DNA from: Flavisolibacter longurius
GTDB taxonomy: Bacteria > Bacteroidota > Bacteroidia > Chitinophagales > Chitinophagaceae
Assembly (NCBI GenBank): GCA_014163555.1
Contig: JACJGO010000003.1
Location: forward strand, 1-64,000
Direction: 5' to 3'
Length of the DNA stretch: 64,000 nucleotides
Positions 14,721 through 27,096 of this stretch are shown here, piece by piece. The stretch's first letter is position 1. Each line of letters starts with the position of its first letter. The translations under genes and the position numbers were made by a program. The notes under the pieces are model-generated. The model saw nothing but the letters and a program-made list of their open reading frames with translations, did not search any database and was not told where the DNA came from.

Positions 14721-14811
14721 GTTCCGTTCAAGACAACCCGCAGCCTCCCTGTGGATGGTAAGTAGATGGTATATAGATGGTAAAGGGTTAGTAAAGGTTT
14801 TTGACGGAAAC
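14721..14811 (+). repeat. Diverged dispersed repeat, copy 2
   Basis: This is the counterpart of 2611-2699. It lies just upstream of the helicase gene. It also contains an internal repeat of the word GATGGTA. Confidence 0.5.
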
Positions 14812-14919
14812 AGCTTGCACTTGGGGTACTTGCGCCAAAGACTACGCTGCGAAACCCTCCGCTTTTCCCGTTCTCTGCGGTTATCAAAACAGGCGTATCC
14901 TTTTGTAGATTTACACAGC

Positions 14920-17694
14920 ATGGCGGACCTGAAAAGATCAAGTGGTTACAAGGTGGTGAAAGCGTGGTTGAACAGCAAGGGCTACCATCCCTTTGCTTAC
15001 CAGGAAGAAGCCTGGCAGCACATCATCAACGGCAGGAGCGGATTGGTCAATGCACCCACCGGTACCGGTAAAACCTTTTCCGTTTTTCTCGGCAGCATCA
15101 TTCAATTCATCAACCAGCATCCCAAAGACTATACCCGCAAGGCCAAAAACGGCCTGCAACTCATCTGGATCACCCCCCTGCGGGCCCTGGCCAAAGACAT
15201 TGGCCGGGCCATGGAAGAAGTGATCTTCGAACTGGACCTGCAATGGCGTGTCGGCATCCGCAACGGCGATACCTCGCTATCCGAAAGGCAAAAGCAAAAG
15301 CGCCAGATGCCCGAAGTGCTGATCATCACCCCCGAAAGCATGCACCTGCTGCTCTCGCAGAAGGGCGCCGCTGATATTTTCAAAACCCTGAAACTGATCG
15401 CTGCCGATGAATGGCATGAACTCATGGGCAGCAAGCGGGGAGTGCTCATAGAATTGGCGGTAAGCCGTATTGTAGGAGCGGCCCCCTCCGGCTCCCCCGG
15501 TGGGGGAGTGACCCTAGCACAGCCCTCGCCTGGCGAAGAGGTTGACAACAGTACAGTGTTTCCGCAAAGCGGGCCAACGCGGCGCAGGTCTCCCTCCCAC
15601 CAGGAGGGCGGGGTAGGCCCCTCCATCTGGGGCATCTCGGCTACCATCGGCAACCTGGAAGAAGCGATGAACGTTCTGCTTTCGCCCTTGAAATTGCAAA
15701 AGACAACTGCGCAACGCGAGGCTGATGCAGAAGCCATTCCCCCCTTGGGGGGTGGGGGGGCTGGCATCATTGTCAAAGCCGCTCTTTCCAAAAGTCTGGA
15801 AGTGCTGTCCGTGCTCCCCGACGAAATTGAAAAATACCCTTGGGCTGGGCACTTAGGCATCAAGCTGGCGCACAAGGTTCTGCCCATTATTGATAACAGC
15901 CGCACCACGCTGATTTTTATCAATACCCGCGGCATGAGTGAGCTTTGGTACCAAACGCTCCTGAACATTGCCCCCCATCTTGCCGGCGCCATTGCCCTGC
16001 ACCACGGCAGCATTGAAATGGAACTGCGTACCTGGGTGGAAGAAGCCCTGCATGAGGGCAAACTAAAGGCCGTGGTCTGCACCGCCAGCCTTGACCTGGG
16101 TGTGGATTTCCGCCCGGTGGAAACCGTTATCCAGGTGGGTTCGCCCAAAGGCGTTGCCCGTTTCCTGCAGCGGGCCGGCCGCAGCGGCCACAGTCCTGAT
16201 GCAACAAGCCGCATTTATTTTTTGCCCACGCATTCGCTTGAGCTGATCGAAGCGGCGGCGCTTAAATCTGCCATTGATGAACAGTTCATCGAAAGCCGTG
16301 AGCCCTTGCTGCTTTGTTACGATGTGCTGGTGCAATACCTCTGTACCCTTGCCTGCGGCGATGGCTTTGTACCGGCTGTTATCTGGAAAGAAGTAAAAAG
16401 TACCAACTGCTATGCCGACCTGACAGAAGACGAATGGGCCGAAATGCTCTACTTTATTACCTCGGGGGGCAATGCCCTGCAGCAGTACGATGAATACAAA
16501 AAGGTGGAGATAGAAAGCGGTGTGTACAAGGTCAACAGCCGCCGCATTGCCATGCGCCACCGCCTGCACATCGGCACCATCGTCAGCGATGCCATGATGA
16601 AGGTAAAGTTCTTGGGCGGCGGCTATATCGGCATTATCGAAGAATATTTTATTTCCCGTCTGGATGTTGGCGATACGTTTACCCTGGCCGGCCGGCAACT
16701 GGAGCTGGTAGCCATCAAAGACATGACGGTAATTGCCAAAAAATCGTCGGCGAAAAAATCGGCCATCCCCAGTTGGCTGGGTGGTCGCCTGCCCCTGTCG
16801 GCGAGCATGGGAAAAGTTTTGCGGCGCATGGTGGATGTAGCCAGCAGTGCGCAAGAGGCAATGGGCAATGAGCAACAGGCAATCGGCAAAAGCCAGGCGG
16901 AAAGGGGTAAAAAGGGGAAGGCAAAAGAAAAGAAGCAAATCACCGGATCAGCATTGCCGATAACCTATCGTCCGTTGCCCATAGAACTGGAAGTATTGCA
17001 ACCTCTCTTTGGCCTCCAGCAGGAACTTTCGCACCTGCCAAAGGAAAAAGAATTGCTTATTGAACAGATCGAGACCCGCGATGGCTTTCACCTATTTGTT
17101 TACCCCTTTGAAGGGCGGCTGGTGCACGAAGCCATGGCAGCACTCCTGGCCTGGCGCATTTCCCGCATTATGCCCATCACGTTTTCCATCGCGATGAACG
17201 ATTACGGCTTTGAGCTGCTGAGCGACCAGCCCATTCCCGTAGACGACAGCAATGTATACGAACTGTTTTCGCCCCAAAACCTGATGGAAGATATCCAGCG
17301 CAGCGTCAATGCCACGGAGATGGCAAAACGTAAATTCCGCGACATCGCCGTGATTGGTGGATTGATCTTCCAGGGTTTTCCCGGCGAATACAAAAAAGCA
17401 CGGCACCTGCAGGCTTCCGCCGGGTTGCTTTTTAATGTCTTCAATGAGTACGATGCCAACAATGTGCTCATCCGCCAGGCCTACCAGGAAGTGTTTGACC
17501 AGCAAATGGAGGAAGCCCGCCTGCGGGAAATGCTCCAGCGGGTGCAGGAATCGAGGATCGTGTTGACCTTCCCGGAGCGGCTAACCCCATTCTGCTTTCC
17601 CATTAAAGTGGACAGCCTGCGGGAAAGCCTTACCTCCGAAAAACTGGCCGACCGGGTACGCCGCATGCAGTCGGAACTGGGATCAGCAGGATAA
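14920..17694 (+). CDS. Ligase-associated DEXH-box DNA helicase (Lhr family)
   Basis: The 924-residue protein has helicase motifs in order: Walker A NAPTGTGKTFS (about 45-55), motif Ia TPLRALAKDI, motif II as ADEWHE, SATIGN, then domain 2 with INTRGMSELWYQ and the motif VI-type RFLQRAGRSGH. A winged-helix and Lhr core domain follow, with the C-terminal end typical of the ligase-associated group. The start at 14920 matches the start preserved in the decayed copy at 4208; an in-frame ATG at 14755 would add an unlikely leader. Three low-complexity insertions interrupt the normal alignment (near 15478-15625, 15700-15768 and 16845-16985). The partner phosphoesterase follows, but the ligase and exonuclease of this repair set are not in the window. 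It probably unwinds DNA in repair. Confidence 0.9.
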   Translation: MADLKRSSGYKVVKAWLNSKGYHPFAYQEEAWQHIINGRSGLVNAPTGTGKTFSVFLGSIIQFINQHPKDYTRKAKNGLQLIWITPLRALAKDIGRAMEEVIFELDLQWRVGIRNGDTSLSERQKQKRQMPEVLIITPESMHLLLSQKGAADIFKTLKLIAADEWHELMGSKRGVLIELAVSRIVGAAPSGSPGGGVTLAQPSPGEEVDNSTVFPQSGPTRRRSPSHQEGGVGPSIWGISATIGNLEEAMNVLLSPLKLQKTTAQREADAEAIPPLGGGGAGIIVKAALSKSLEVLSVLPDEIEKYPWAGHLGIKLAHKVLPIIDNSRTTLIFINTRGMSELWYQTLLNIAPHLAGAIALHHGSIEMELRTWVEEALHEGKLKAVVCTASLDLGVDFRPVETVIQVGSPKGVARFLQRAGRSGHSPDATSRIYFLPTHSLELIEAAALKSAIDEQFIESREPLLLCYDVLVQYLCTLACGDGFVPAVIWKEVKSTNCYADLTEDEWAEMLYFITSGGNALQQYDEYKKVEIESGVYKVNSRRIAMRHRLHIGTIVSDAMMKVKFLGGGYIGIIEEYFISRLDVGDTFTLAGRQLELVAIKDMTVIAKKSSAKKSAIPSWLGGRLPLSASMGKVLRRMVDVASSAQEAMGNEQQAIGKSQAERGKKGKAKEKKQITGSALPITYRPLPIELEVLQPLFGLQQELSHLPKEKELLIEQIETRDGFHLFVYPFEGRLVHEAMAALLAWRISRIMPITFSIAMNDYGFELLSDQPIPVDDSNVYELFSPQNLMEDIQRSVNATEMAKRKFRDIAVIGGLIFQGFPGEYKKARHLQASAGLLFNVFNEYDANNVLIRQAYQEVFDQQMEEARLREMLQRVQESRIVLTFPERLTPFCFPIKVDSLRESLTSEKLADRVRRMQSELGSAG
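15478..15625 (+). repeat. GC-rich hairpin element inserted in frame in the helicase gene
   Basis: The segment codes for about 49 Pro/Gly/Ser-rich residues between LAVSRIVG and SIWGISATIGN, where related helicases have a short loop. It has a perfect hairpin CTCCCCCGGTGGGGGAG near the left end and CCCTCC/GGAGGG near the right. Both ends match, in the same relative order, the reverse strand of the intergenic element at 29270-29395. Confidence 0.75.
15738..15768 (+). repeat. Second G-rich hairpin inside the helicase gene
   Basis: CCCCCC-TT-GGGGGG is followed by another G7 run. It codes for PPLGGGGAG in a stretch (about 15700-15768) that looks extra relative to the usual protein. It may be a trimmed member of the same GC-rich element family. 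Confidence 0.5.
16861..16982 (+). repeat. Imperfect inverted repeat in frame in the helicase gene
   Basis: The left arm 16861-16888 and right arm 16955-16982 are 28 nt each, and 21 positions pair. The left arm is made of GGCAAT-like words (ATGGGCAATGAGCAACAGG). The 66-nt centre codes for a Lys/Gln-rich linker. It resembles in design the elements at 17713, 22939 and 25780. Confidence 0.75.
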
Positions 17695-17712
17695 GTAGGA
17701 TTTCTATAGACA

Positions 17713-17795
17713 AAACCACAGAGACAGGGATACACGGAGATGCACAGAGAAGTTTGCCTTTGTGACCCTTTGTGTCCCAGAGCCTTCGTGGTTCA
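17713..17795. repeat. Imperfect inverted repeat with CACAGAG-like words
   Basis: AACCACAGAGACAGGGATAC... on the left pairs imperfectly with ...GTGTCCCAGAGCCTTCGTGGTT on the right. It lies between the helicase stop and the phosphoesterase. Confidence 0.65.
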
Positions 17796-17874
17796 AAAAA
17801 AAATTCCACCTTATTTAAGAAAGTTTTGATCCAATTGCCCATCCCTTTCAGCCCAGAAATCCCTGTTCCAACGG

Positions 17875-17882
17875 TAGCTTTG
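17875..17882 (+). promoter_or_regulatory. Possible -7 box before the phosphoesterase gene
   Basis: TAGCTTTG fits the Bacteroidota -7 consensus TAnnTTTG exactly and lies 9 nt before the chosen ATG, which would give a very short leader. No clear TTTG -33 box is seen at the usual spacing. Confidence 0.45.
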
Positions 17883-17891
17883 CGACCTCTT

Positions 17892-18542
17892 ATGCAGGCA
17901 CCGCTTCTCCAAAAAATTCACGGTCAAAATCTTTGGCTTTCAGCCCAGCGTTCCCTTTTTTGGGAAGAAGAAAAATCCCTTGTGGTGTCGGACCTGCACT
18001 TTGGCAAAACCGGGCATTTTCGAAAGGCAGGCATTGCCGTACCGCAAACAGTTTACAAAGAAGACCTGCAGCGCCTTGTTAGTTTGTTGCATTATTTCAA
18101 GCCTTCCCAACTGATCGTGGTGGGTGATTTTTTTCACAGCCGGGCCAACACCGAACTGGATTGGTTCAAGCGCTGGCGAGACGATTTTTCTGCCCTGCAG
18201 ATCACACTCGTAAAAGGAAACCACGATATCCTAACCGATGCCTGGTACAAGGAAGCAGCCATCGATGTGGTCAATCCGACCCTGCAAACAGGGCCCTTCC
18301 TGTTTTCCCACGACCGGTGCGAGACCGCGGCCGGTGTTTACGCCTTTTGCGGGCACATTCACCCCGGGATTATGTTGCATGGTCTGGGGAAACAATCCTT
18401 GCGCTTTCCTTGTTTTTATTTTACGGAACGCCATTGCATCCTGCCGGCCTTTAGCAAATTCACCGGTGCCGTGTCTATGAACAGGGGAGAAGCCAGCGCT
18501 GTTTTTGCCATTGTTGAAAACGAATTGATCAAACTCACATGA
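17892..18542 (+). CDS. pdeM: Ligase-associated metallophosphoesterase (PdeM-like)
   Basis: The 216-residue product has calcineurin-type metal motifs: VSDLHFGKTGHFRKAG (D-x-H), VVGDFFHS (GD), VKGNHD (GNHD), then FSHD and CGHIHPG (GH-x-H). This arrangement and the KxGHFRKAG stretch are typical of the phosphoesterase encoded beside the Lhr-type helicase and an ATP-dependent ligase in many bacteria. I chose ATG 17892, which starts MQAPLLQKIHGQNLWL, because the longer frame from 17772 runs into the inverted repeat. The gene overlaps the next start by four bases (ATGA), so it is co-translated with the HDAC-family gene. The role in repair is inferred from the family. Confidence 0.85.
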   Translation: MQAPLLQKIHGQNLWLSAQRSLFWEEEKSLVVSDLHFGKTGHFRKAGIAVPQTVYKEDLQRLVSLLHYFKPSQLIVVGDFFHSRANTELDWFKRWRDDFSALQITLVKGNHDILTDAWYKEAAIDVVNPTLQTGPFLFSHDRCETAAGVYAFCGHIHPGIMLHGLGKQSLRFPCFYFTERHCILPAFSKFTGAVSMNRGEASAVFAIVENELIKLT

Positions 18543-19462
18543 GCCGGACCGGAAAACTTCACATTGCCTACGATCCCATTTATGCGCATCCCCTGCCGGA
18601 AGGGCACCGTTTCCCGATGCTGAAGTATGAACTCATTCCGCAACAACTACTTTATGAAGGGATGATAACCGAAGGTGCTTTGTTCTCACCCTTGCCTTGT
18701 CCCGATGATGTGGTGTTGCTCACCCATGATGCGGACTACCTGCAAAAGCTGAAAGAGCAAACGCTGTCGGCTCGGGAGCAGCGACGGATTGGTTTTCCGC
18801 AGTCGCCCCAATTAACCCAGCGGGAACTGATCATCACCCAGGGCACCATCGACTGCTGCTTCCATGCCATGCAAAATGGCGTTGCGCTGAATGTGGCTGG
18901 CGGTACCCACCATGCCTTTGCCGACAGGGGAGAAGGCTTTTGCCTCCTCAATGATTTCGCCGTGGCTGCTAATTTTTTATTGCACAAAGGACTGGCAAAA
19001 AAGGTTCTTGTCATTGACCTAGATGTGCACCAGGGCAACGGCACGGCAAAGATCTTTGAAGGCGATGACCGCGTATTTACTTTCAGTATGCACGGCCGCA
19101 ATAATTATCCTTTTCACAAGGAAAAAAGTGATTTGGATGTAGAAATACTGGATGGCACAACCGATGAAACGTACTTACAATTGCTGACATCTCATCTTCC
19201 TTCCTTGCTGGAAACGGTGAAGCCTGATATTGCTTTTTACCTCTCCGGTGTGGACATTTTGGAAACCGATAAATTCGGGAAGCTGAAAGTCACTATCAAC
19301 GGTTGCTTCGAACGGGATCGCATTGTTTTCTCTTTGCTAAAAGCTGCCAACATTTCCTGCGTAGTGGCCATGGGCGGAGGCTATTCGCCTCAGGTAAAAA
19401 CAATTGTAGAAGCGCACTGCAATACGTTCAAACTGGCAAAGGAAATTTGGGAGTTGGAATAA
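18539..19462 (+). CDS. Histone deacetylase superfamily protein
   Basis: The product has 307 residues. Zinc-amidohydrolase motifs are clear: GGTHHAFADRGEGFCLLND (tandem His near 125), VIDLDVHQGNGT (D-x-D-x-H, about 160-164), YLSGVDILETD (third Asp) and the glycine loop AMGGGYSP. The fold removes acyl groups from amines; bacterial members act on small acetylated polyamines or on proteins. The substrate is not known here. Its start overlaps the phosphoesterase stop as ATGA, which implies coupled translation with the helicase and phosphoesterase genes. That company is a reason to ask whether it deacetylates a DNA-bound protein, but this is only a guess. Confidence 0.88.
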   Translation: MSRTGKLHIAYDPIYAHPLPEGHRFPMLKYELIPQQLLYEGMITEGALFSPLPCPDDVVLLTHDADYLQKLKEQTLSAREQRRIGFPQSPQLTQRELIITQGTIDCCFHAMQNGVALNVAGGTHHAFADRGEGFCLLNDFAVAANFLLHKGLAKKVLVIDLDVHQGNGTAKIFEGDDRVFTFSMHGRNNYPFHKEKSDLDVEILDGTTDETYLQLLTSHLPSLLETVKPDIAFYLSGVDILETDKFGKLKVTINGCFERDRIVFSLLKAANISCVVAMGGGYSPQVKTIVEAHCNTFKLAKEIWELE

Positions 19463-19516
19463 GCGGTGAGCTGCGAGCTTTGAGCTGTGAGCAATGGTTG
19501 GCCGGTGAAGAACGCA

Positions 19517-19556
19517 ATATCCCAATATCTAATATCCCATATCTCAATATCTCAAC
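19517..19556. repeat. Short AT-rich low-complexity run
   Basis: Words such as AATATC, CCATATC and TCAATATC recur in the gap between the convergent HDAC and DUF5916-type genes. Just before it GTGAGCTGCGAGCTTTGAGC shows the same style. No matching inverted arm was found. Confidence 0.4.
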
Positions 19557-19567
19557 TATCCTCTCTC

Positions 19568-22078
19568 TTACTTCTTCCTCCTCAGTTGGTTGTAATCAAG
19601 AAAGTAGATAAGCTTCACCGTTAGCTCGTTTCCGTGCGAAATGCGGAAGGTGTTCTTCAGGTTGTGAATATAGTCTGTGCCCGAACCCACGGCATAGGGG
19701 TCGCCCAGCCAGTTTTTATAGCCAACGATCACGCGGCTGCCGAGGCGGAAATCCCAGGTTAAAAAAGCATCCACGTTGAACAGGTTGTAATTGTCGTTCT
19801 GGCTGCTGATAAAGGGCCTTGGGCGGTGCGTGCCATCGGCCGCCACGGTGTAAAAGCTGTTATAGGCCACGTTGTTCCAGTAGTGGCGGGTACGCAGGGA
19901 AATGTTCAGTCGCGAGGTAAAGCTGTAGTTCCCGGTAAGGATGGTAGTCGTCTGCACATTCTGCCGGTAGCCGATAATAGGCTCTCCATTGGGCTCCCGC
20001 AAAAAGGCAAAACCAATCTGGTTCTGGTCATCTTCGCGGTTTAGCGAAAGATCCAGGGTAAAGCGATTGTTGAAGCGGTACCGGGCTCCCAGGTTGGTAT
20101 GGAAGAAGTTTCCGCCTTTTATATCGGAACGGGTATAGCCCAAGGTATAGCTGACAAACAGCTTTTTCCGGCTGTCGGTGCTGCCCTGCAGCGACAGGTA
20201 ATGAAAGGCCGGCCGTTTGAGGTAGCGGTTGGGTGTACGCAATTCAAAATAATCGTGTTGCGAAAAGGGCTGTGTGCCGATGTTCACCGTTATATCCCAA
20301 AAATTGCGGAAGTACCAAAAGGCTGTTGCGTACACTTCGTACTGATTAAATGCATTGGGCTTGTACATGCGGGTGTAGCGGGTGCCCAGCCGGTAGCGGT
20401 ACGAAAGAAACCTGTCCGTTGCCGTTAGCTGGTTGTGGCTGATGGTGGCATCGTAAATCACCTCGTTGGGCGCCTGCAGGTAACCCATGTCATTCGGGTC
20501 AAACTGGTGGGAGGTTATGCTGGACGTAAAATTGTATTGCAGCTTTCCACTCACCTTACCGGCAAAAAACGTGGTCTTAAAGCCATCATACGGTTTCACC
20601 ACCAGGCGACCATTGATGCGGGCTGTATCGTCTATCAGGTTAATGCCATACGAAGAGTAGTCGAGACTGGGCAGGGATGAATAGCCAAAGATCTTGCTGT
20701 ATCGCCCCGTCACCTTTACCTGGAACTGGTTATCAGGAGTAAAATAGGCATAATCCAACCCGGTGACGTTGGCATCCCGGGCCGCTCCGCTACGCACCAC
20801 GTTGGTATTAGTAAAGGTGAGGTAAGAACGGTCTTTCAGCGCCTGGTCAAGCACCACCAGGTTAAAATTGGTTAGAGGTTCGGTTTCAAACGTAGATTCT
20901 CTCCCTGTAAAATCGTTGCGTACCGTGGCCTTCATCGGTGCTGTAACGGCATTGAACACACCTACACCCAACTTTCCTTTTGTGCGACCTGAAAGCTTGA
21001 TGGCGTTGTAAAGCTGAGTGATGGAAGGGTTTTTCACCACGGTGCTGTTAGGCATTTCCTGTGCGGTATAATACCCGGTAGGTACGGCACCAATCCGCCG
21101 CGAATAAAACAACCCTGACTTTTTAAACAGCTCAGTTCCTTCTGTAAAAAACGGGCGGTTTTCCTGGAAAAGCTGTTCGAAGGGGGAGAGGTTATTGATG
21201 ACATTATCGGAGATCACCTGGCCAAAGTCAGGGATCAGGGTAGCATCAAGGGTAAAGCTTTCGTTGATGCCGTACTTAACATCCATACCCCCATTGCGCA
21301 GCACTTCTTTGTCCTTCACATGATTCTCGGGATAGTACCGAATGCCACCCGAGAGGTAGGGCGAAAAGCTAAGGCGCAGGGGTGGGGTAATGTTTTGAAG
21401 GTTGGCAAACTGGCCGAACTGGTTGATGAACCCGTTCTCGTTTGGATTAACCGGGTTCCAGTACGCCATTTCGTTGCTGCGGCGGATGTAGCGCAGGAAC
21501 TGCAGTCCCCAGGTTTGCACCTCTTTTTTCGCAAAGCGGATGGAAAAATAGGGAATCCGCATTTCCACGGTCCAGCCGTCGGCTGTGCCCTGCGTTTCGC
21601 TTTGCCAGACGGCATCCCAGGAGCGGTCGCCAAAATCGCCCCAGCTTGGATTGGCTGATGCGTTGAGCTTGGCGTCGGTTTGCACGTTGGCCGGTGTTAC
21701 CAGGAACTGGAAGCCATTTTGTTTGTCATTATAGGTATCCAGGAAAACGGAGAAATAGTCGGCATCCTGCTGCTGCTCTCCGTCCCTTGCCGTCAGTTGC
21801 CTGCGGATCTGCGAAGGCTGGTCGAACAACTGCGCGGCAATGTACACGGCATCATCATCGTACAGGATACGAACCGTTGTTTTAGCCGAAGCGGGTTGAC
21901 CATAATTGGGGGAATGCTGCACAAAATCGGTTGCAAGAGGGGCCTGCAGCCAGATGGCATCGTCAAGTTTTCCATCAATAACCGGGGGTACAGATGACTT
22001 GACTGCAGTTAGTGTTTTTTGTGTTAGCCCTCTCAACGTCAATAGCAGAACGAAGAGGAGGAGAAGCCCTCTCAACAT
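19568..22078 (-). CDS. DUF5916-type outer membrane protein with N-terminal CBM9-like domain
   Basis: The product has 836 residues from ATG 22078, chosen because a clean signal peptide (MLRGLLLLFVLLLTLRG) starts there. Residues about 25-210 form a CBM9-like sandwich (VIDGKLDDAIWLQAP, DDDAVYIAAQLFD, DADYFSVFLDTYNDKQNGF). The rest is a long series of amphipathic aromatic strands ending FLDYNQLRRKK, consistent with an outer-membrane barrel. Proteins of this build are common in Bacteroidota and of unknown function. It faces the regulator gene 71 nt upstream on the same strand. The reading frame is intact. Confidence 0.8.
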   Translation of the reverse strand: MLRGLLLLFVLLLTLRGLTQKTLTAVKSSVPPVIDGKLDDAIWLQAPLATDFVQHSPNYGQPASAKTTVRILYDDDAVYIAAQLFDQPSQIRRQLTARDGEQQQDADYFSVFLDTYNDKQNGFQFLVTPANVQTDAKLNASANPSWGDFGDRSWDAVWQSETQGTADGWTVEMRIPYFSIRFAKKEVQTWGLQFLRYIRRSNEMAYWNPVNPNENGFINQFGQFANLQNITPPLRLSFSPYLSGGIRYYPENHVKDKEVLRNGGMDVKYGINESFTLDATLIPDFGQVISDNVINNLSPFEQLFQENRPFFTEGTELFKKSGLFYSRRIGAVPTGYYTAQEMPNSTVVKNPSITQLYNAIKLSGRTKGKLGVGVFNAVTAPMKATVRNDFTGRESTFETEPLTNFNLVVLDQALKDRSYLTFTNTNVVRSGAARDANVTGLDYAYFTPDNQFQVKVTGRYSKIFGYSSLPSLDYSSYGINLIDDTARINGRLVVKPYDGFKTTFFAGKVSGKLQYNFTSSITSHQFDPNDMGYLQAPNEVIYDATISHNQLTATDRFLSYRYRLGTRYTRMYKPNAFNQYEVYATAFWYFRNFWDITVNIGTQPFSQHDYFELRTPNRYLKRPAFHYLSLQGSTDSRKKLFVSYTLGYTRSDIKGGNFFHTNLGARYRFNNRFTLDLSLNREDDQNQIGFAFLREPNGEPIIGYRQNVQTTTILTGNYSFTSRLNISLRTRHYWNNVAYNSFYTVAADGTHRPRPFISSQNDNYNLFNVDAFLTWDFRLGSRVIVGYKNWLGDPYAVGSGTDYIHNLKNTFRISHGNELTVKLIYFLDYNQLRRKK

Positions 22079-22149
22079 GCATGCAGTTTTGGCGAAAGCG
22101 TAAATATAATTGACATCGGGAATATTTACGCTATATCTCACCAAAAAAT

Positions 22150-22899
22150 TTATGACATCCGCTTCTTCAATACACTGACCTGTTCCTGCAGGTTGCTGAC
22201 AAGATTAGCCAGGTTGTTTACGTCCCAGCGCTGCTGTGTATTGGCTTTGGAAATGATCATCTGGGCCTGCCAGAGTTCTAAAATCTCATCGGTTCCTACG
22301 TTATAGGGCTGGTAGGCAGGGTTGTCGCTAATCAGGGTAAACTTGTTTTTCTGGCGGTTGTTTTTGAGGACCCGCTTGTACACGATGCCATCAGTTTTTG
22401 ACACCACCACGTAGGTATTGTTGGATTTGATTTCTTCCAGGTCTTGCACTTTTTCGCCCACAATCACGCTGCCGCTGGGCGTGGGCATCATTGAGTCGCC
22501 TACGATTTCAAAAGCACGATAGTCACCACCGCTCAGCATGGGAAGAGTAAAGGTGTTCAGTTCGTCAATAAATTCCGGGTCGGAATATCCGGCCAGGTAA
22601 CCGGCAGCGGCTTTCACCGGAACAAAAGGAATATCCGTGCGTCCGGCTGCCAGTTTTTGGGCCCGGCGGCGGGAGAGGTAACTTGTTTTGTTGTCGCTCA
22701 CATCGCGGCGAAGCAGATCGTCCAACTTAAGCTTGAACATATCGGCTACGGCTTCCAGTATCTCGATACGGGGTTCGGCTCTTTCTTCTTCATACGCACC
22801 GAGGAGCGATCGTTTGATACGCAGTTTCTGAGCAAATTCTTCCTGTGTCCAGCCCCGTAGCTTACGCAGGTATTTGAGGTTTTTATTGGCAAACGACAT
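22150..22899 (-). CDS. XRE-family regulator with S24 (LexA-like) peptidase domain
   Basis: The product has 249 residues. An N-terminal helix-turn-helix (about 8-64, LRKLRGWTQEEFAQKL) is followed by a linker containing a possible Ala-Gly self-cleavage site (YLAGYS, about 101-106). The S24 domain has Ser136 in EIVGDSMMP and Lys175 in IVYKRV, the expected catalytic pair. Such proteins bind operator DNA and may be inactivated by RecA-stimulated autocleavage. The C-terminal 40 residues look like a coiled coil (NLANLVSNLQEQVSVLKKR). It is transcribed toward the DUF5916-type gene and may control it and the divergent surE unit. There is no sign of a prophage around it. Confidence 0.88.
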   Translation of the reverse strand: MSFANKNLKYLRKLRGWTQEEFAQKLRIKRSLLGAYEEERAEPRIEILEAVADMFKLKLDDLLRRDVSDNKTSYLSRRRAQKLAAGRTDIPFVPVKAAAGYLAGYSDPEFIDELNTFTLPMLSGGDYRAFEIVGDSMMPTPSGSVIVGEKVQDLEEIKSNNTYVVVSKTDGIVYKRVLKNNRQKNKFTLISDNPAYQPYNVGTDEILELWQAQMIISKANTQQRWDVNNLANLVSNLQEQVSVLKKRMS

Positions 22900-22938
22900 G
22901 CACTAATAATTTTAGCCGCAAAATACTAATTTATTTAG

Positions 22939-23078
22939 AAATGGTGAGTGGTGAATTGTGAGTGGTGATTTTTTTTTCTGTCAAATTTTTTCGAAATAAG
23001 ATGCAGTTCGGTTGCCAGCGAAGAAATAAAAGAAAAAGATTCTTCTGCTCACTACTGACCACTCGCCACTCACCATTT
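22939..23078. repeat. Imperfect inverted repeat with GGTGAGT words
   Basis: The left arm 22939-22968 and right arm 23049-23078 (30 nt each) pair at 25 positions. The arms repeat the word GTGAGTG or GTGAATTG. The 80-nt centre has a T9 run. It occupies most of the gap between the divergent regulator and surE. Confidence 0.8.
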
Positions 23079-23129
23079 GGTTTTCCGTTATTTCTGGTTC
23101 AAATTTGCAGGAAGCATAAAACTGTAGGC

Positions 23130-23921
23130 ATGGAAGAACAGCGAGAACCGGTCATACTTGTCACGAATGATGATGGCATCAATGCGCCCGGCATCCGGAA
23201 CCTGGTAGAAGCGGTAAGAGGGTTGGGAAAGATCGTGGTCGTGGCGCCAGACAAACCCCAATCGGGCATGGGACATGCTATCACCATCGGGGTTCCGCTG
23301 CGGCTACACCGGGTTCACCTTTTTGATGGCATTGAATCGTACCAGTGCACCGGCACACCGGTGGATTGCGTCAAGCTGGCCGTTGACAAAGTGCTGCACC
23401 AAAAGCCCGATATCTGCATCAGCGGAATCAATCATGGGGCCAATCACAGCATCAACGTCATTTATTCGGGTACAATGTCGGCGGCGGTGGAAGCGGCGAT
23501 TGAAAGCATTCCGTCCATTGGCTTTTCCCTGCTCGATTATGCTCTGGAAGCTGACTTCAGCGCTGCCCGCAAATATGCCCGCATTTTGGTGGAGCAGATG
23601 TTGAAGCACCCAGTCGACAAGCACTGTGTGCTGAATGTAAACTTTCCCATTGCGACCCCGGAACAGATCAACGGCATAAAAATCTGCCGTCAGGCCTATG
23701 CCAAATACGAAGAAGACTTCCTGGAACGTTTAGATCCACACGGACGCAAGTATTATTGGCTCACCGGTGAGTTTGTAAACTTTGATGAAGGTACCGATAC
23801 GGATGTATGGGCGCTGGCCAATAACTATGTTAGCGTGGTGCCGGTGCAGTTTGATTTAACCAACTATAAACAAAAGCAACAAATTGAAAACGACTGGGAC
23901 ATTTTTTCTGAAAAGGGATAA
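23130..23921 (+). CDS. surE: 5'/3'-nucleotidase SurE
   Basis: The product has 263 residues, normal for SurE. The start ATG 23130 gives MEEQREPVILVTNDDGINAPG, with the metal-binding NDDG right after the first strand. PDKPQSGMGHAIT follows, then GTPVDCVKLAV and CISGINHGANHSINVIYSGTMSAA, all family hallmarks. The enzyme removes phosphate from nucleoside monophosphates and is a stationary-phase survival factor. Its last 38 bases overlap the next small gene. The order surE, small membrane protein, lpxB suggests one transcript. Confidence 0.95.
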   Translation: MEEQREPVILVTNDDGINAPGIRNLVEAVRGLGKIVVVAPDKPQSGMGHAITIGVPLRLHRVHLFDGIESYQCTGTPVDCVKLAVDKVLHQKPDICISGINHGANHSINVIYSGTMSAAVEAAIESIPSIGFSLLDYALEADFSAARKYARILVEQMLKHPVDKHCVLNVNFPIATPEQINGIKICRQAYAKYEEDFLERLDPHGRKYYWLTGEFVNFDEGTDTDVWALANNYVSVVPVQFDLTNYKQKQQIENDWDIFSEKG

Positions 23922-24198
23922 TTTGCAATTGGGATTGCTGCTGGGATTTTTGCTGCCTTTACTGGTTTTCCTGATTATTTACCTGGTGCGTTTCAGCGAG
24001 GCCTCCCTGCCGGATTTCCTAGATACGTTTGCTGAGCAGAAAGGGCTGATCACGTTTTTTGGCGTGTGGAGCCTGGTGACTAACATTGCCCTCTTTACCT
24101 ACTACGTCAATACGCAAAAAGACAAAACAGCCAAAGGCGTTTTTGCCGTTACACTTTTGTATGGCCTTGGCGTTTTGCTGGCAAAAGTGCTGATCTGA
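23884..24198 (+). CDS. Small membrane protein between surE and lpxB
   Basis: The product has 104 residues with three likely membrane spans (about residues 16-36, 55-75 and 85-103). The first begins LQLGLLLGFLLPLLVFLIIY. No ATG precedes the conserved part; the reading starts at TTG 23884 inside the end of surE, or possibly at a later TTG (23923). The overlap suggests translational coupling. I do not know the function; its place before lpxB suggests an envelope role. Confidence 0.7.
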   Translation: MKTTGTFFLKRDNLQLGLLLGFLLPLLVFLIIYLVRFSEASLPDFLDTFAEQKGLITFFGVWSLVTNIALFTYYVNTQKDKTAKGVFAVTLLYGLGVLLAKVLI

Positions 24199-24419
24199 TT
24201 CAGGGTTCGACTTTCGATGTTTTCTGTTTTTGCTAGCAATCTTTGCATAACACATCAATAAAAAAATAGCCTTGCCGGACCAATCTGGTTGGGAAGACTT
24301 GTATGCTTGCCGGTTAATGCAAACAGCATTTCAAAATTGTTAGGAACTCTTCCTAGCCAATAACATCGAACAGTAAACCTCCAACTCCAAACCTTAAACA
24401 TCTTCTATCTTTACTGCCG

Positions 24420-25604
24420 ATGAAATACTACCTCATTGCCGGAGAAGCGTCGGGGGATTTGCACGGCAGTAACCTGATTAAAGAATTAAAAAAGCTGGAC
24501 AAGGACGCTGCCATCCGCTGCTGGGGCGGCGACCTGATGGAAACTGCCGGCGGCCAGGTGGTAAAGCATTACCGTGATTTGGCATTTATGGGATTTGTGG
24601 AAGTGGTAATGAACCTGCGGACCATTATGGCCAATCTGACATTCTGCAAACAAGATATTGCTGCATTTGATCCTGACGTTGTGGTGCTGATCGATTACCC
24701 GGGTTTTAACCTGCGCATAGCCAAATGGGCAAAGGCCTCCGGATTCAACGTCATCTATTATATCTCCCCACAAGTATGGGCCTGGAAGGAAAACCGGGTG
24801 AAAGGCATCCGGCAGTGGGTGGATAAAATGCTCGTGATCCTGCCGTTTGAAAAGGCCTTTTACCAGAAATGGGATTACAAAGTGGACTACATCGGCCACC
24901 CTTTGGTGCAGGTGGTTGACGAAGCCATTCAGGAAAAAACGGGTACGCCTCTCCGTTGTTTGCAACCCTCCACGCAACAAACCGTTGACGTTATTGAAAA
25001 TGAATGGGAGGGACATGCTTTGGTAGCCCTGTTGCCTGGAAGCCGCAAACAGGAAATCGCTGTGAAACTGCCGGTGATGCTGGAAGCAGCAAAATTATTT
25101 CCTTCCTACCGGTTCATTATTGCGCAGGCACCGGGACAGCCCCTTTCGTTTTACCAGGAACTGACGGCCGCTTATCCCAATGTATGGATTGCTTTATCCG
25201 GGCAAACCTATACGCTGCTAACAAAAGCAAAAGCTGCACTGGTTACCTCCGGAACTGCCACCTTGGAAACGGCGCTTTTTAGCGTACCGCAGGTTGTTTG
25301 TTACAAGGGTTCTGCCATTTCGTACCAGATCGCAAAACGACTGGTTAAGATTAAATACATATCACTGGTTAATCTGATTATGGACAAACCGGTGGTGAAA
25401 GAATTGATCCAGGGGGAGCTAACGATTTCCAACATACAACATGAACTGGATGCTATCCTTCATAAAGAAGAAAAGATCGGCAAGATGTTGTCTGACTACA
25501 GGGAATTAAGAGCCATCCTGCAAAAAGAAGGCAATGCTTCGGCCCGGGCGGCACAGGAAATTGTCGGTTACCTGCAGGCTGCTAACGCGTCGAAAGCCGG
25601 ATGA
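24420..25604 (+). CDS. lpxB: Lipid-A-disaccharide synthase
   Basis: The product has 394 residues. The N-terminus MKYYLIAGEASGDLHGSNLI carries the LpxB GEASGD signature. Further family stretches are DYPGFNLRIAKWAK, YYISPQVWAWKENRVK, YIGHPL, ALLPGSRKQEI, TSGTATLETAL and VVCYKGSAISYQIAK. It joins UDP-diacylglucosamine to lipid X in lipid A synthesis at the inner membrane. TATCTTTA 12 nt before the ATG resembles a -7 box, so it may have its own promoter. Its 3' end overlaps a small convergent gene by 23 bases. Confidence 0.95.
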   Translation: MKYYLIAGEASGDLHGSNLIKELKKLDKDAAIRCWGGDLMETAGGQVVKHYRDLAFMGFVEVVMNLRTIMANLTFCKQDIAAFDPDVVVLIDYPGFNLRIAKWAKASGFNVIYYISPQVWAWKENRVKGIRQWVDKMLVILPFEKAFYQKWDYKVDYIGHPLVQVVDEAIQEKTGTPLRCLQPSTQQTVDVIENEWEGHALVALLPGSRKQEIAVKLPVMLEAAKLFPSYRFIIAQAPGQPLSFYQELTAAYPNVWIALSGQTYTLLTKAKAALVTSGTATLETALFSVPQVVCYKGSAISYQIAKRLVKIKYISLVNLIMDKPVVKELIQGELTISNIQHELDAILHKEEKIGKMLSDYRELRAILQKEGNASARAAQEIVGYLQAANASKAG

Positions 25605-25746
25605 TCAGAATGATCAGTGCCAGTATAAACAGCAGCAGGCTCAATCGGTTGATGCCATGCATGTACTTAACAAACGACGACTTTGGCCGGTTCGGATCGG
25701 GCTTGCGCAGGTAAAGGTATTCGGCTAATTGTTTCAGGACTCCCAT
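25582..25746 (-). CDS. Small membrane protein, DUF6728-like (54 residues)
   Basis: Reading the minus strand from ATG 25746 gives a 54-residue protein. It opens MGVLKQLAEYLYLRKPDPNR, continues KYMHGINRLS and ends in one strong membrane span (LLLFILALIILIIRL). I recall a small Bacteroidota family with the same plan (YLYLRKPDP, MHGINR, one span), listed as DUF6728, but I could not check. The gene is convergent with lpxB and its stop lies inside the lpxB end. Function unknown. Confidence 0.75.
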   Translation of the reverse strand: MGVLKQLAEYLYLRKPDPNRPKSSFVKYMHGINRLSLLLFILALIILIIRLSTR

Positions 25747-25779
25747 AACTGATTTCTGCCGGTAAAATTACAAGTAGTT

Positions 25780-25891
25780 AGGGCTGCGAAAATGTGAAAA
25801 CGTGAAAAGTGAAACGTCAGACGTGAAACCAAGGGATATCTTTTCTTAAGAGCCCTAATTTCACCTTTCACGTGTACCGTTTCACAACCCT
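25780..25891. repeat. Imperfect inverted repeat with GTGAAA words
   Basis: The left arm 25780-25814 (AGGGCTGCGAAAATGTGAAA and on) pairs with 25859-25891 (to CCGTTTCACAACCCT). The arms repeat the word CGTGAAA. The centre is 44 nt. It lies between the small membrane protein gene and a weak minus-strand gene. Confidence 0.7.
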
Positions 25892-26084
25892 ACGGTGCCG
25901 GGTTGCGCCGGAAACCGTCCTGCCGTTTGTACAGGTCGCGGATGTTCATGCTGTCGGGAGTAGCCCTGGGAAATACAGCGCTTGCGGTACTGCGTTTTTT
26001 TCGTTTGTCAGCTGTAGACTTGCCGCCTGCGGGGTGCACCACCTGTTCGAAATAAGTGTAAACGTTATGGAGATACGTATTCAT
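25890..26084 (-). CDS. Small hypothetical protein
   Basis: The 64-residue reading from ATG 26084 opens MNTYLHNVYTYFEQVVHP and has a basic middle (KSTADKRKKRST). Codon use resembles its neighbours. Its stop touches the edge of the inverted repeat. Upstream ATGs at 26114 and 26126 are possible starts. I do not recognise it and it may not be a gene. Confidence 0.4.
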   Translation of the reverse strand: MNTYLHNVYTYFEQVVHPAGGKSTADKRKKRSTASAVFPRATPDSMNIRDLYKRQDGFRRNPAP

Positions 26085-26238
26085 TTTCAAGAGGATTTTG
26101 GAATAGTTTGACATCAGTTTTGGCAAAAGGTTTTTTCAAACAATTGTTAATACAGATATTTCAAACTTACAGCAGGAGACCAAAAAAGTCAAGTGAAAAA
26201 ATACGTAAAAAATGGGATGCCCAACGACGCTGTTTCTT

Positions 26239-27096
26239 TTACGGAAGAAATGGATAATCGCGGTCAGAGCGCTTTTTTTCCTGCTCCTGTTCCCTTTCTT
26301 CCGGCGTTTTCATACTATTGTAGCGCAGTTTCATAGCAAGGGCATAGCCGTCTAAATCCGGGAACAAACTGGCCCGGTGCAGGTTCATTTTCAGCAGTTC
26401 GCGAAGGGCCTGTTTTTTATGGCAGGATGGAATCTCCAACTTTATTATGGCCTGATGCATGGTGTCTCGTAAAAACTGCAACTGCTCCATAAATGGCGCT
26501 TCCGAAGTGCCGGTGCTTAAGAATATGGATTGCTGCAGGGAGTAACGCCGGTTCATGCGAAAAGGCTCTACCGGAAAAACAAGGCGTTTGTTGTTTTGGT
26601 GAAACAAAACTTCAAACAGCTTTTCATTGATCAGGTTTTGCGTTGCTTTAAGCGCATCGCCAAATTCATGGGAAAGAATCTCCAGTGCAGCTTCCCGCAG
26701 GTGTTCTACATGAAGACACCATACGGCTACAAAATAGTCTTCTTTTACCGGGGCAAATTCATAGGCAAAATAGGCAGCAATAAACGGGGATTTAGTAAGG
26801 TCGAGGAGGCGGGTAGGAGCGCCGTGGTGCTGCATCAGCGCCAGCCATTCGATAAGGTGTTCCGGGATGTGGTCTCGTGATAGGTAATTGCGGGCACCGC
26901 GTTGAAACTCGGCTACAAATTTTTCTTCCACACCATTGCCTTGCAGGATAAAATCGGTACGCTCAATGGCATTGTTCAAAACCCAGTCGGCATTGGCTTG
27001 TCCCCGAAAGGCCCATTTCTCCGAAAACTGTTCCACATACCGGCTAAAATCCTCAAAGGAATCCAACCGTACCGTTGTATAGCTGTATGGATTCAT
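26239..27096 (-). CDS. FRG-domain protein
   Basis: The product has 285 residues. The FRG motif is near residue 30 (KWAFRGQANADW), and the second conserved block HHGAPTRLLDLTKSPFIAAYFA-like follows near 110. These are the markers of the FRG domain, found in proteins of phages, mobile DNA and candidate defence loci. An ADP-ribosyl-type activity has been suggested for the domain but is not shown. The C-terminus is basic and acidic (EREQEQEKKRSDRD). A small gene lies 33 nt upstream on the same strand and may be its partner. Confidence 0.82.
   Translation of the reverse strand: MNPYSYTTVRLDSFEDFSRYVEQFSEKWAFRGQANADWVLNNAIERTDFILQGNGVEEKFVAEFQRGARNYLSRDHIPEHLIEWLALMQHHGAPTRLLDLTKSPFIAAYFAYEFAPVKEDYFVAVWCLHVEHLREAALEILSHEFGDALKATQNLINEKLFEVLFHQNNKRLVFPVEPFRMNRRYSLQQSIFLSTGTSEAPFMEQLQFLRDTMHQAIIKLEIPSCHKKQALRELLKMNLHRASLFPDLDGYALAMKLRYNSMKTPEEREQEQEKKRSDRDYPFLP

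Follow-up and report, generated by a model that had tools for sequence, protein, structure and literature searches.

The hairpin between a regulator gene and surE probably belongs, as a copy without a gene, to a class of mobile hairpins whose full form holds a PF05635 gene, the protein of which may aid their spread. It lies in a window of 64,000 nucleotides (positions 1 to 64,000 of contig JACJGO010000003.1, Flavisolibacter longurius; genome G000 below). No move was observed in the genomes compared.

The hairpin and other copies in the window

The hairpin and the genes on either side of it are as follows.

22150..22899, minus strand: flanking gene, regulator with Cro/C1-type HTH and Peptidase_S24
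22939..22968, plus strand: left arm of heptamer words NGT[GC]A[GA]T (GGTGAGT), from arm pairing and TRF
22969..23048, no strand: centre, 80 nt, no gene; its counterpart in G006 holds two PF05635 gene fragments
23049..23078, minus strand: right arm, 25 of 30 positions paired with the left arm, from arm pairing and TRF
23130..23921, plus strand: flanking gene surE (PF01975)

The original prediction that arms within 22939-23078 pair at 25 of 30 positions is confirmed, with heptamer words in both arms and 83% complementarity over the 30 nt. TRF finds a period of 7 on each side, with about four heptamers per arm. The regulator and surE are divergent genes and the hairpin occupies their spacer, outside the 23S and 16S rRNA genes; an Rfam search of 16000-26500 gave no match. 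Folded as RNA, the 140 nt reach -51.2 kcal/mol (z -6.84), and none of 200 shuffles was equally good. A palindrome with arms of tandem 7- or 8-nt words is the mark of the hairpins that enclose PF05635 genes, and GGTGAGT itself is found around the PF05635 genes L142 (G009), L171 (G017), L186 (G013) and L328 (G014). It is found around none of the 11 PF05635 genes of G000, and the 80-nt centre in G000 lacks the PF05635 gene of the full form. In our reading, the surE hairpin is a PF05635 element that lacks the gene.

The window holds further copies, as well as arrays that have no paired partner.

16857..16889, plus strand: left arm of a GGCAATG hairpin, in frame within the helicase gene 14755-17694; word of the arms of PF05635 locus L105 (GGCAATA)
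16951..16982, minus strand: right arm of the GGCAATG hairpin, degenerate here and cleaner in G009
17716..17750, plus strand: left arm of a CACAGAG copy; word also around GxxExxY genes L360 and L362
17757..17794, minus strand: right arm of the CACAGAG copy
19462..19492, plus strand: AGCTGTG array with no paired arm; word of PF05635 loci L101 and L106
19515..19561, minus strand: CAATATCC array, read as GGATATTG on this strand; same word as at PF05635 locus L110
24196..24404, no strand: degenerate bracketed stretch, with other words at the same site in G009 (by eye)
25792..25829, plus strand: left arm of a GTGAAAC hairpin; word of PF05635 locus L107
25859..25885, minus strand: right arm of the GTGAAAC hairpin

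The surE hairpin had been grouped with copies at 16861, 17713 and 25780, said to have a common design without a common sequence. The design is indeed shared and the words, mostly of 7 or 8 nt, differ among families. The copies at 16861 and 25780 are of the same kind; at 17713 the words are longer and less regular, and that copy is probably part of a second family that runs parallel to this one. The view of all copies as one set with arbitrary words does not hold, as each word marks a family of its own that is spread through the genome and its relatives. The helicase gene is also overlapped by long minus-strand ORFs of up to 361 aa.

An excess of such structures over random sequence, which the original prediction implied, was found. 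We searched 858,561 bases of G000 (the window and 40 stretches of the same genome) and obtained 35 inverted repeats with at least 20 of 24 positions paired and a loop of at most 150 nt, against none in one Markov-2 resample; twenty Markov-3 resamples gave between 0 and 2 apiece. Under a strict threshold, 16 of the 35 have at least one arm with a period of 7 or 8 nt, and the other 19 fail it. The 7-nt words among the 16 are GGTGAGT, CGTGAAA, GATGACA, GGCAATA, GTCAGGA and TATGCAA, and the 8-nt words are TGTGAAAA, GATATTGG, GTTGAAAG and GTTCACAA. Seven words (GTGAAAC, GGCAATA, GTTCACAA, GATATTGG, TTTGAAAA, GTCAGGA and AGCTGTG) are common to short hairpins and to PF05635 genes of G000.

PF05635 genes within paired arms

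PF05635 is the 23S rRNA intervening-sequence protein, a four-helix bundle. Matches to it occur in 17 of the 18 genomes of the genus set (179 in total), 11 of them in G000, where 10 are above the cut-off. The genes were examined with an arm test, which asks for arm pairing within 260 nt at a score of at least 12 and does not require words. Eight of the 11 in G000 pass; L102 and L106 have words on both sides but score too low, and L111 has no words. Across the genus, 83 of 98 loci score at least 12, compared with 31 of 980 mismatched left and right flanks of different loci. The genus loci numbered 99, being those returned by the search together with a hand choice from the 179 matches (all listed for G000, G005, G006, G009, G016 and G017, and most of the good ones of the others); L123, whose left flank is too short, was left out before the 98. 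Ordinary ORFs of G000 pass in 16 of 600 cases, and among the four best of these controls two are PF05635 genes and one is a GxxExxY gene. Twelve extra loci of G002, G007 and G014, examined with wider flanks and kept outside all of these and the following counts, gave 6 of 12 with a score of at least 12; two (L327 and L330) have no words.

The arrangement extends beyond the genus. Among the best 80 of 578 loci from a scan of named genomes, for which a broad profile built from 16 proteins was too diverged, 63 of 79 pass (L213 was left out for a short flank), against 27 of 790 mismatched pairs. By their record titles, these best 80 span Bacteroidota, Planctomycetota, Patescibacteria, Chloroflexota, Desulfobacterota, Nitrospirota, Selenomonadales, Gastranaerophilales and others. 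Of 22 matching plasmid records, 12 were used, all cyanobacterial, and 11 of these 12 loci pass. Failures of the test amount to about 15% of loci in the genus and 20% in the wider set. Two side observations concern single loci: at the cyanobacterial plasmid loci L368, L373 and L374 the PF05635 cassettes lie in CRISPR operons, between cas6 and cas4 or cas10 and cmr3, and at L119 (G007) a 129-nt stretch, coding-like and with TTTAGTTG words, is inverted on both sides of the PF05635 gene.

The anatomy of the arms was analysed at 143 loci (L119, L268 and L272 were left out). The best word period is 7 in 103 loci, 8 in 34, 9 in 4 and 6 in 2, and the mean autocorrelation is 0.53 at lag 7, 0.49 at lag 14, 0.36 at lag 8 and about 0.25-0.28 at other lags. 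Arm-to-arm match is 0.876 in register and 0.669 one word off (137 loci), a gap that arises partly by construction, the register having been picked for the best match. The 5' arm is poor in C (11% C, 28% G; C is below G in 133 of 143 loci and above it in 7) and the palindrome therefore has a polarity. Five words are present in 105 of 272 arms, four in 82, six in 36 and three in 17. The mean arm has 4.75 words where these are of 7 nt and 4.66 where they are of 8 nt; equal length in nucleotides would predict 4.15 (p 2e-5). This test used arms of three to seven words, with 8 zero-word arms and the long arms left out, and the count depends on the chosen threshold. Arm length is thus counted in words and not in nucleotides. 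Slippage may still set the number of words per arm. The solved PF05635 structures 2GSC and 2RLD have five chains each, and a protein of this type has been described as a homopentameric ring (PMC4990558). Arms of four to five words and a ring of five members make a one-to-one match of subunit and word a natural suggestion.

Twenty short GGTGAGT hairpins have centres that for the most part are not related to each other, with one weak pair, so most of them are not simple deletion derivatives; one short-hairpin interior recurs at other loci at 81-82%. A MITE with shared ends and a shared interior was rejected on the same observations. At L025, L049, L021 and L033, short GGTGAGT-type brackets surround a terminator-like hairpin (CCTCCTGA..TCAGGAGG-T7).

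One strong-armed control ORF encodes a GxxExxY protein (PF13366, PD-(D/E)XK superfamily). In a small sample of 11 GxxExxY loci with 300-nt flanks (three from loci already in the set and all eight of eight plasmid records), five pass the arm test (L070, L360, L361, L362 and L363), and the CACAGAG words around L360 and L362 are those of the window copy at 17716. The GxxExxY loci are possibly a parallel class of element with a nuclease-like protein. Viral contigs gave no GxxExxY match. The arms of the five are of CACAGAG, CACGAATTA or CACGCGAAGG words; the 11 loci include L070:7524-7905 (minus strand) and L357-L364.

Words, proteins and the exchange of cassettes

The word of an element goes with its protein. 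Over 82 loci (L119, a large duplication, was left out beforehand) word and protein similarity are correlated with a Mantel r of 0.534, and the largest value in 2000 permutations was 0.074. Pairs with a common word rise from 0.3% at 20-30% amino acid identity to 67-79% at 60-80%. Two related words, GGTGAGT and ACGTGAA, go with proteins that share 51% identity, and the gene of G000 nearest to the GGTGAGT gene L142 is L107, also 51% identical. Plain joint inheritance may account for this correlation, at least in part.

Counts of arrays follow the genes in some genomes. GTTCAC arrays number 83 in G000, 44 in G005, 44 in G006, 52 in G009 and 97 in G017, with 3 in G015, 1 in G001 and none in the other eleven; the backward control gave none in all 18 genomes. 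A PF05635 gene with the GTTCAC word is present in four of the five array-rich genomes (G000, G005, G006 and G017); in G009 there was no cognate gene among 9 of its 10 PF05635 matches. GTSART gives 77-320 matches in seven genomes, four of which (G007, G009, G014 and G017) have a cognate gene. The array-rich G000, G002 and G016 have no intact cognate gene, while in G001, G010 and G012 the gene is present and arrays are few. With a tighter pattern G000 has 155 GTSART arrays against 24 for the backward control; a looser pattern allowing 3 mismatches is weak evidence, with 193 matches against 144, and the GTSART control is also non-zero in G008, G009, G013, G014, G016 and G017. G002 has 86 GTSART and 55 GTTTGG arrays, yet its sole trace of PF05635 is a fragment of 36 aa that falls below the cut-off, with no intact gene; gene loss after spread, or another mover, would explain this.

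The regulator-surE site was compared across the 18 genomes, and relatives differ at this junction, as the original prediction implied. G000 and G009 have the same hairpin. Between the same two junctions the arms in G006 are made of GATGAGT, a related word, and the centre is several hundred nucleotides long and holds two PF05635 fragments in different frames (E 2e-11 and 2e-9 with the profile built here). Six genomes (G003, G010, G012, G014, G015 and G017) have a spacer of 108-117 nt that by eye has no such hairpin, and in six others (G001, G002, G004, G007, G008 and G016) the spacer, inspected by eye only, is 199-263 nt. The regulator and surE are apart in G005, and G011 and G013 gave no match for the site.

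Whole cassettes are exchanged at occupied sites. G000 and G009, with flanks that are 81-89% identical, have different cassettes at four common sites, where the proteins share 22% (L105/L143), 33% (L109/L144), 18% (L106/L134) and 54% (L101/L141) identity; the L101 and L141 cassettes are in opposite orientation. The outgroup G006 (flanks 71-76% identical) is of the G009 type at two of these sites, with 62% amino acid identity for L143/L154 and 69% for L144/L153, and at both, G009 and G006 have a common word and protein from which G000 differs. It follows from the state of the outgroup that the cassettes at the L105/L143 and L109/L144 sites changed on the G000 branch. Short copies are exchanged too: at one site between two genes G000 and G009 have GGTGAGT brackets and G006 has GTGAAAC brackets, around different terminator-like hairpins. 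A full element has one empty site, L145 of G009 against a 46-nt spacer in G000. The CACAGAG hairpin (17716-17794) is absent from G009 between aligned flanks. The alignment of G000 and G009 has no internal gap of at least 18 nt, every difference falling between alignment blocks.

No target-site duplication or clear motif was evident in the outer flanks of 82 loci, and the empty sites are too diverged for exact junctions. AGATAGG occurs near the arms in 6 of the 82 outer flanks and in none of 980 background pieces; it resembles part of a Bacteroidota promoter.

Inspection by eye covered the helicase linker near 16857 in 16 genomes. The in-frame GGCAATG hairpin is present in G000 and G009, G015 has direct GGCAATA arrays, G006, G005 and G003 have other words, and most of the others have 48-75 nt without clear words. 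The linker (16857-16982; relatives L337-L353) thus appears, by eye, to have been recolonised in frame more than once, with words that vary from species to species.

Origin of the elements and known systems

The element is a palindrome in which each arm is a short tandem array, mostly of four to five degenerate words of 7 or 8 nt. The full form has a PF05635 gene in its centre and the short form no gene, and each clade of the protein goes with its own word, such that the sequence varies among families and the architecture stays constant. This architecture, the link of word and clade, the differences in presence at fixed sites and the exchange of cassettes are observed; how the element moves is our suggestion. 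The five-membered ring may bind one word per subunit on a single-stranded DNA or RNA arm, bring the two ends of the element together and help copies whose arms match, among them gene-less copies such as the one at surE, to settle either at new sites or at occupied ones, with an empty or occupied hairpin serving as the target. The element has no nuclease or transposase, and copying in trans, by host replication or a reverse-transcription step, would therefore be the likeliest source of new copies. The ends so paired would be those of a single-stranded or RNA hairpin.

Alternatively, the palindromes could arise by slippage of 7-8-nt units with template switching between the arms, the PF05635 genes being passengers. 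The abundance of arrays in G002 suits this account, as do long uniform tracts such as GTTTGGA in G006, and the in-register match of the arms (partly by construction, as noted above) fits templated copying. We nevertheless think it unlikely, since it leaves unexplained the gene within the arms (83 of 98, 63 of 79 and 11 of 12 loci), the link between word and clade, and the exchange of whole cassettes between intact flanks. Slippage with inversion, or selection for a cruciform alone, as originally proposed, does not explain the first two of these, on which slippage plus inversion as the whole story was set aside. In a further proposal, a reverse transcriptase adds words in the manner of a telomerase to both 3' ends of a break, which are then joined around filler, with PF05635 as an Avd-like partner. 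The uniform polarity of the arms is what 3'-end extension on both sides would give, the mostly unrelated centres would be the fillers, and PF05635 does resemble Avd (PMC10053308), but independent addition would not be expected to leave the arms paired in register, and we regard this as the least probable of the readings.

A role for the host is distinctly unlikely in our judgement, though several observations are in its favour. Stems around terminators or mRNA ends might steer RNase III cutting or decay, with the hairpin selected and the words free to vary; the transcript of the surE hairpin folds strongly, several short copies enclose a terminator-like hairpin, the site with different words in G000/G009 and G006 also has different terminators, and related 23S rRNA insertions are reported to be removed by RNase III (PMC4990558). 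However, copies also lie in frame inside the helicase gene and between the divergent regulator and surE, the surE copy is absent in six relatives, and the enclosed gene is left unexplained. Movement in trans of REPIN-like elements by Y1 (RAYT/IS200-type) transposases seems to us very unlikely. The layout is alike, with two inverted repeats, a spacer and singlets besides (PMC3116915), and PF01797 genes occur in 14 of the 18 genomes. Of the four genomes that have no PF01797 match, however, two are array-rich (G014, 84% complete, with 320 GTSART matches, and G002 with 86), and G004, where PF01797 has five matches, lacks arrays of all three words tested; Y1 transposases were rejected as the movers.

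If the mobile hairpin class is as we suggest, some very common bacterial genes of no known function may be parts of mobile elements of a kind so far unrecognised. The PF05635 four-helix-bundle proteins, whose function is unknown according to the sources, gain a genomic context and a testable role, and the GxxExxY proteins perhaps gain a context too. A ring that reads one short word per subunit would, if true, mean that mobile elements can encode their ends in a novel manner, with the end sequence free to change while the design is kept. Separate observations are also joined: heptamer repeats, heptamer intron stems, rRNA intervening sequences and REP-like hairpins. A wider reading is possible, and we put it forward tentatively: a transposase-less mobile class present across many phyla, its ends written in a family-specific code of four to five short words that correspond one to one to the subunits of a five-membered ring of four-helix bundles, with exchange of whole cassettes at occupied sites and a second, GxxExxY (PD-(D/E)XK) branch with CACAGAG/CACGAA words. 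It would account for the cyanobacterial heptamer repeats, the Nostoc trnL stem, the rRNA intervening sequences and two very common protein families of no known function. A full-text literature search found no paper that links these features; most subscription journals and bioRxiv lay outside its scope and it is weak evidence of novelty.

One of the closest known systems is the rRNA intervening sequence, described as an S23/IVP ORF between complementary, stem-forming ends, sporadic in occurrence, in which a long stem-loop replaces a small loop (PMC4990558). The elements here likewise have a PF05635-type gene enclosed by complementary ends, which pair as a stem. Unlike the rRNA insertions, they lie between or inside protein genes, each genome has 0-18 full copies besides dozens of short ones, and the ends consist of tandem arrays of words, with different words for different protein clades. 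REPINs are described as inverted doublets that form hairpins, with singlets as remnants, a repeat family for each gene family, and gene-less copies that outnumber the gene (PMC3116915). The surE copy is alike in having two inverted repeats that form a hairpin; the arms, in contrast, are arrays of 7-8-nt words and not one conserved REP, and the gene is PF05635 and not a Y1 transposase.

Cyanobacterial heptanucleotide repeats are known as STRR. The TAACTGA direct repeats of Beggiatoaceae, cyanobacteria and Bacteroidetes are reported as heptamer arrays, mostly intergenic and at strain-specific sites, for which a regulatory role is proposed (PMC4679880); unlike the elements here, they are described as direct repeats of a single word, and neither a palindrome nor a linked gene is part of that description. 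The Avd protein of diversity-generating retroelements is reported to be structurally related to PF05635 proteins (PMC10053308). In Nostoc, the P6b stem of the trnL intron is described as composed of heptamers, NNTGAGT in Class II and TDNGATT in Class I, and replacement of the whole region by the other class has been proposed (PMC4476775). The GGTGAGT word of the surE hairpin fits Class II, with the complement on the other side, which is a likeness of form and not proof of descent. P6b is described there as a feature of the intron without a gene, whereas the PF05635 genes of cyanobacterial plasmids found here lie within heptamer brackets.
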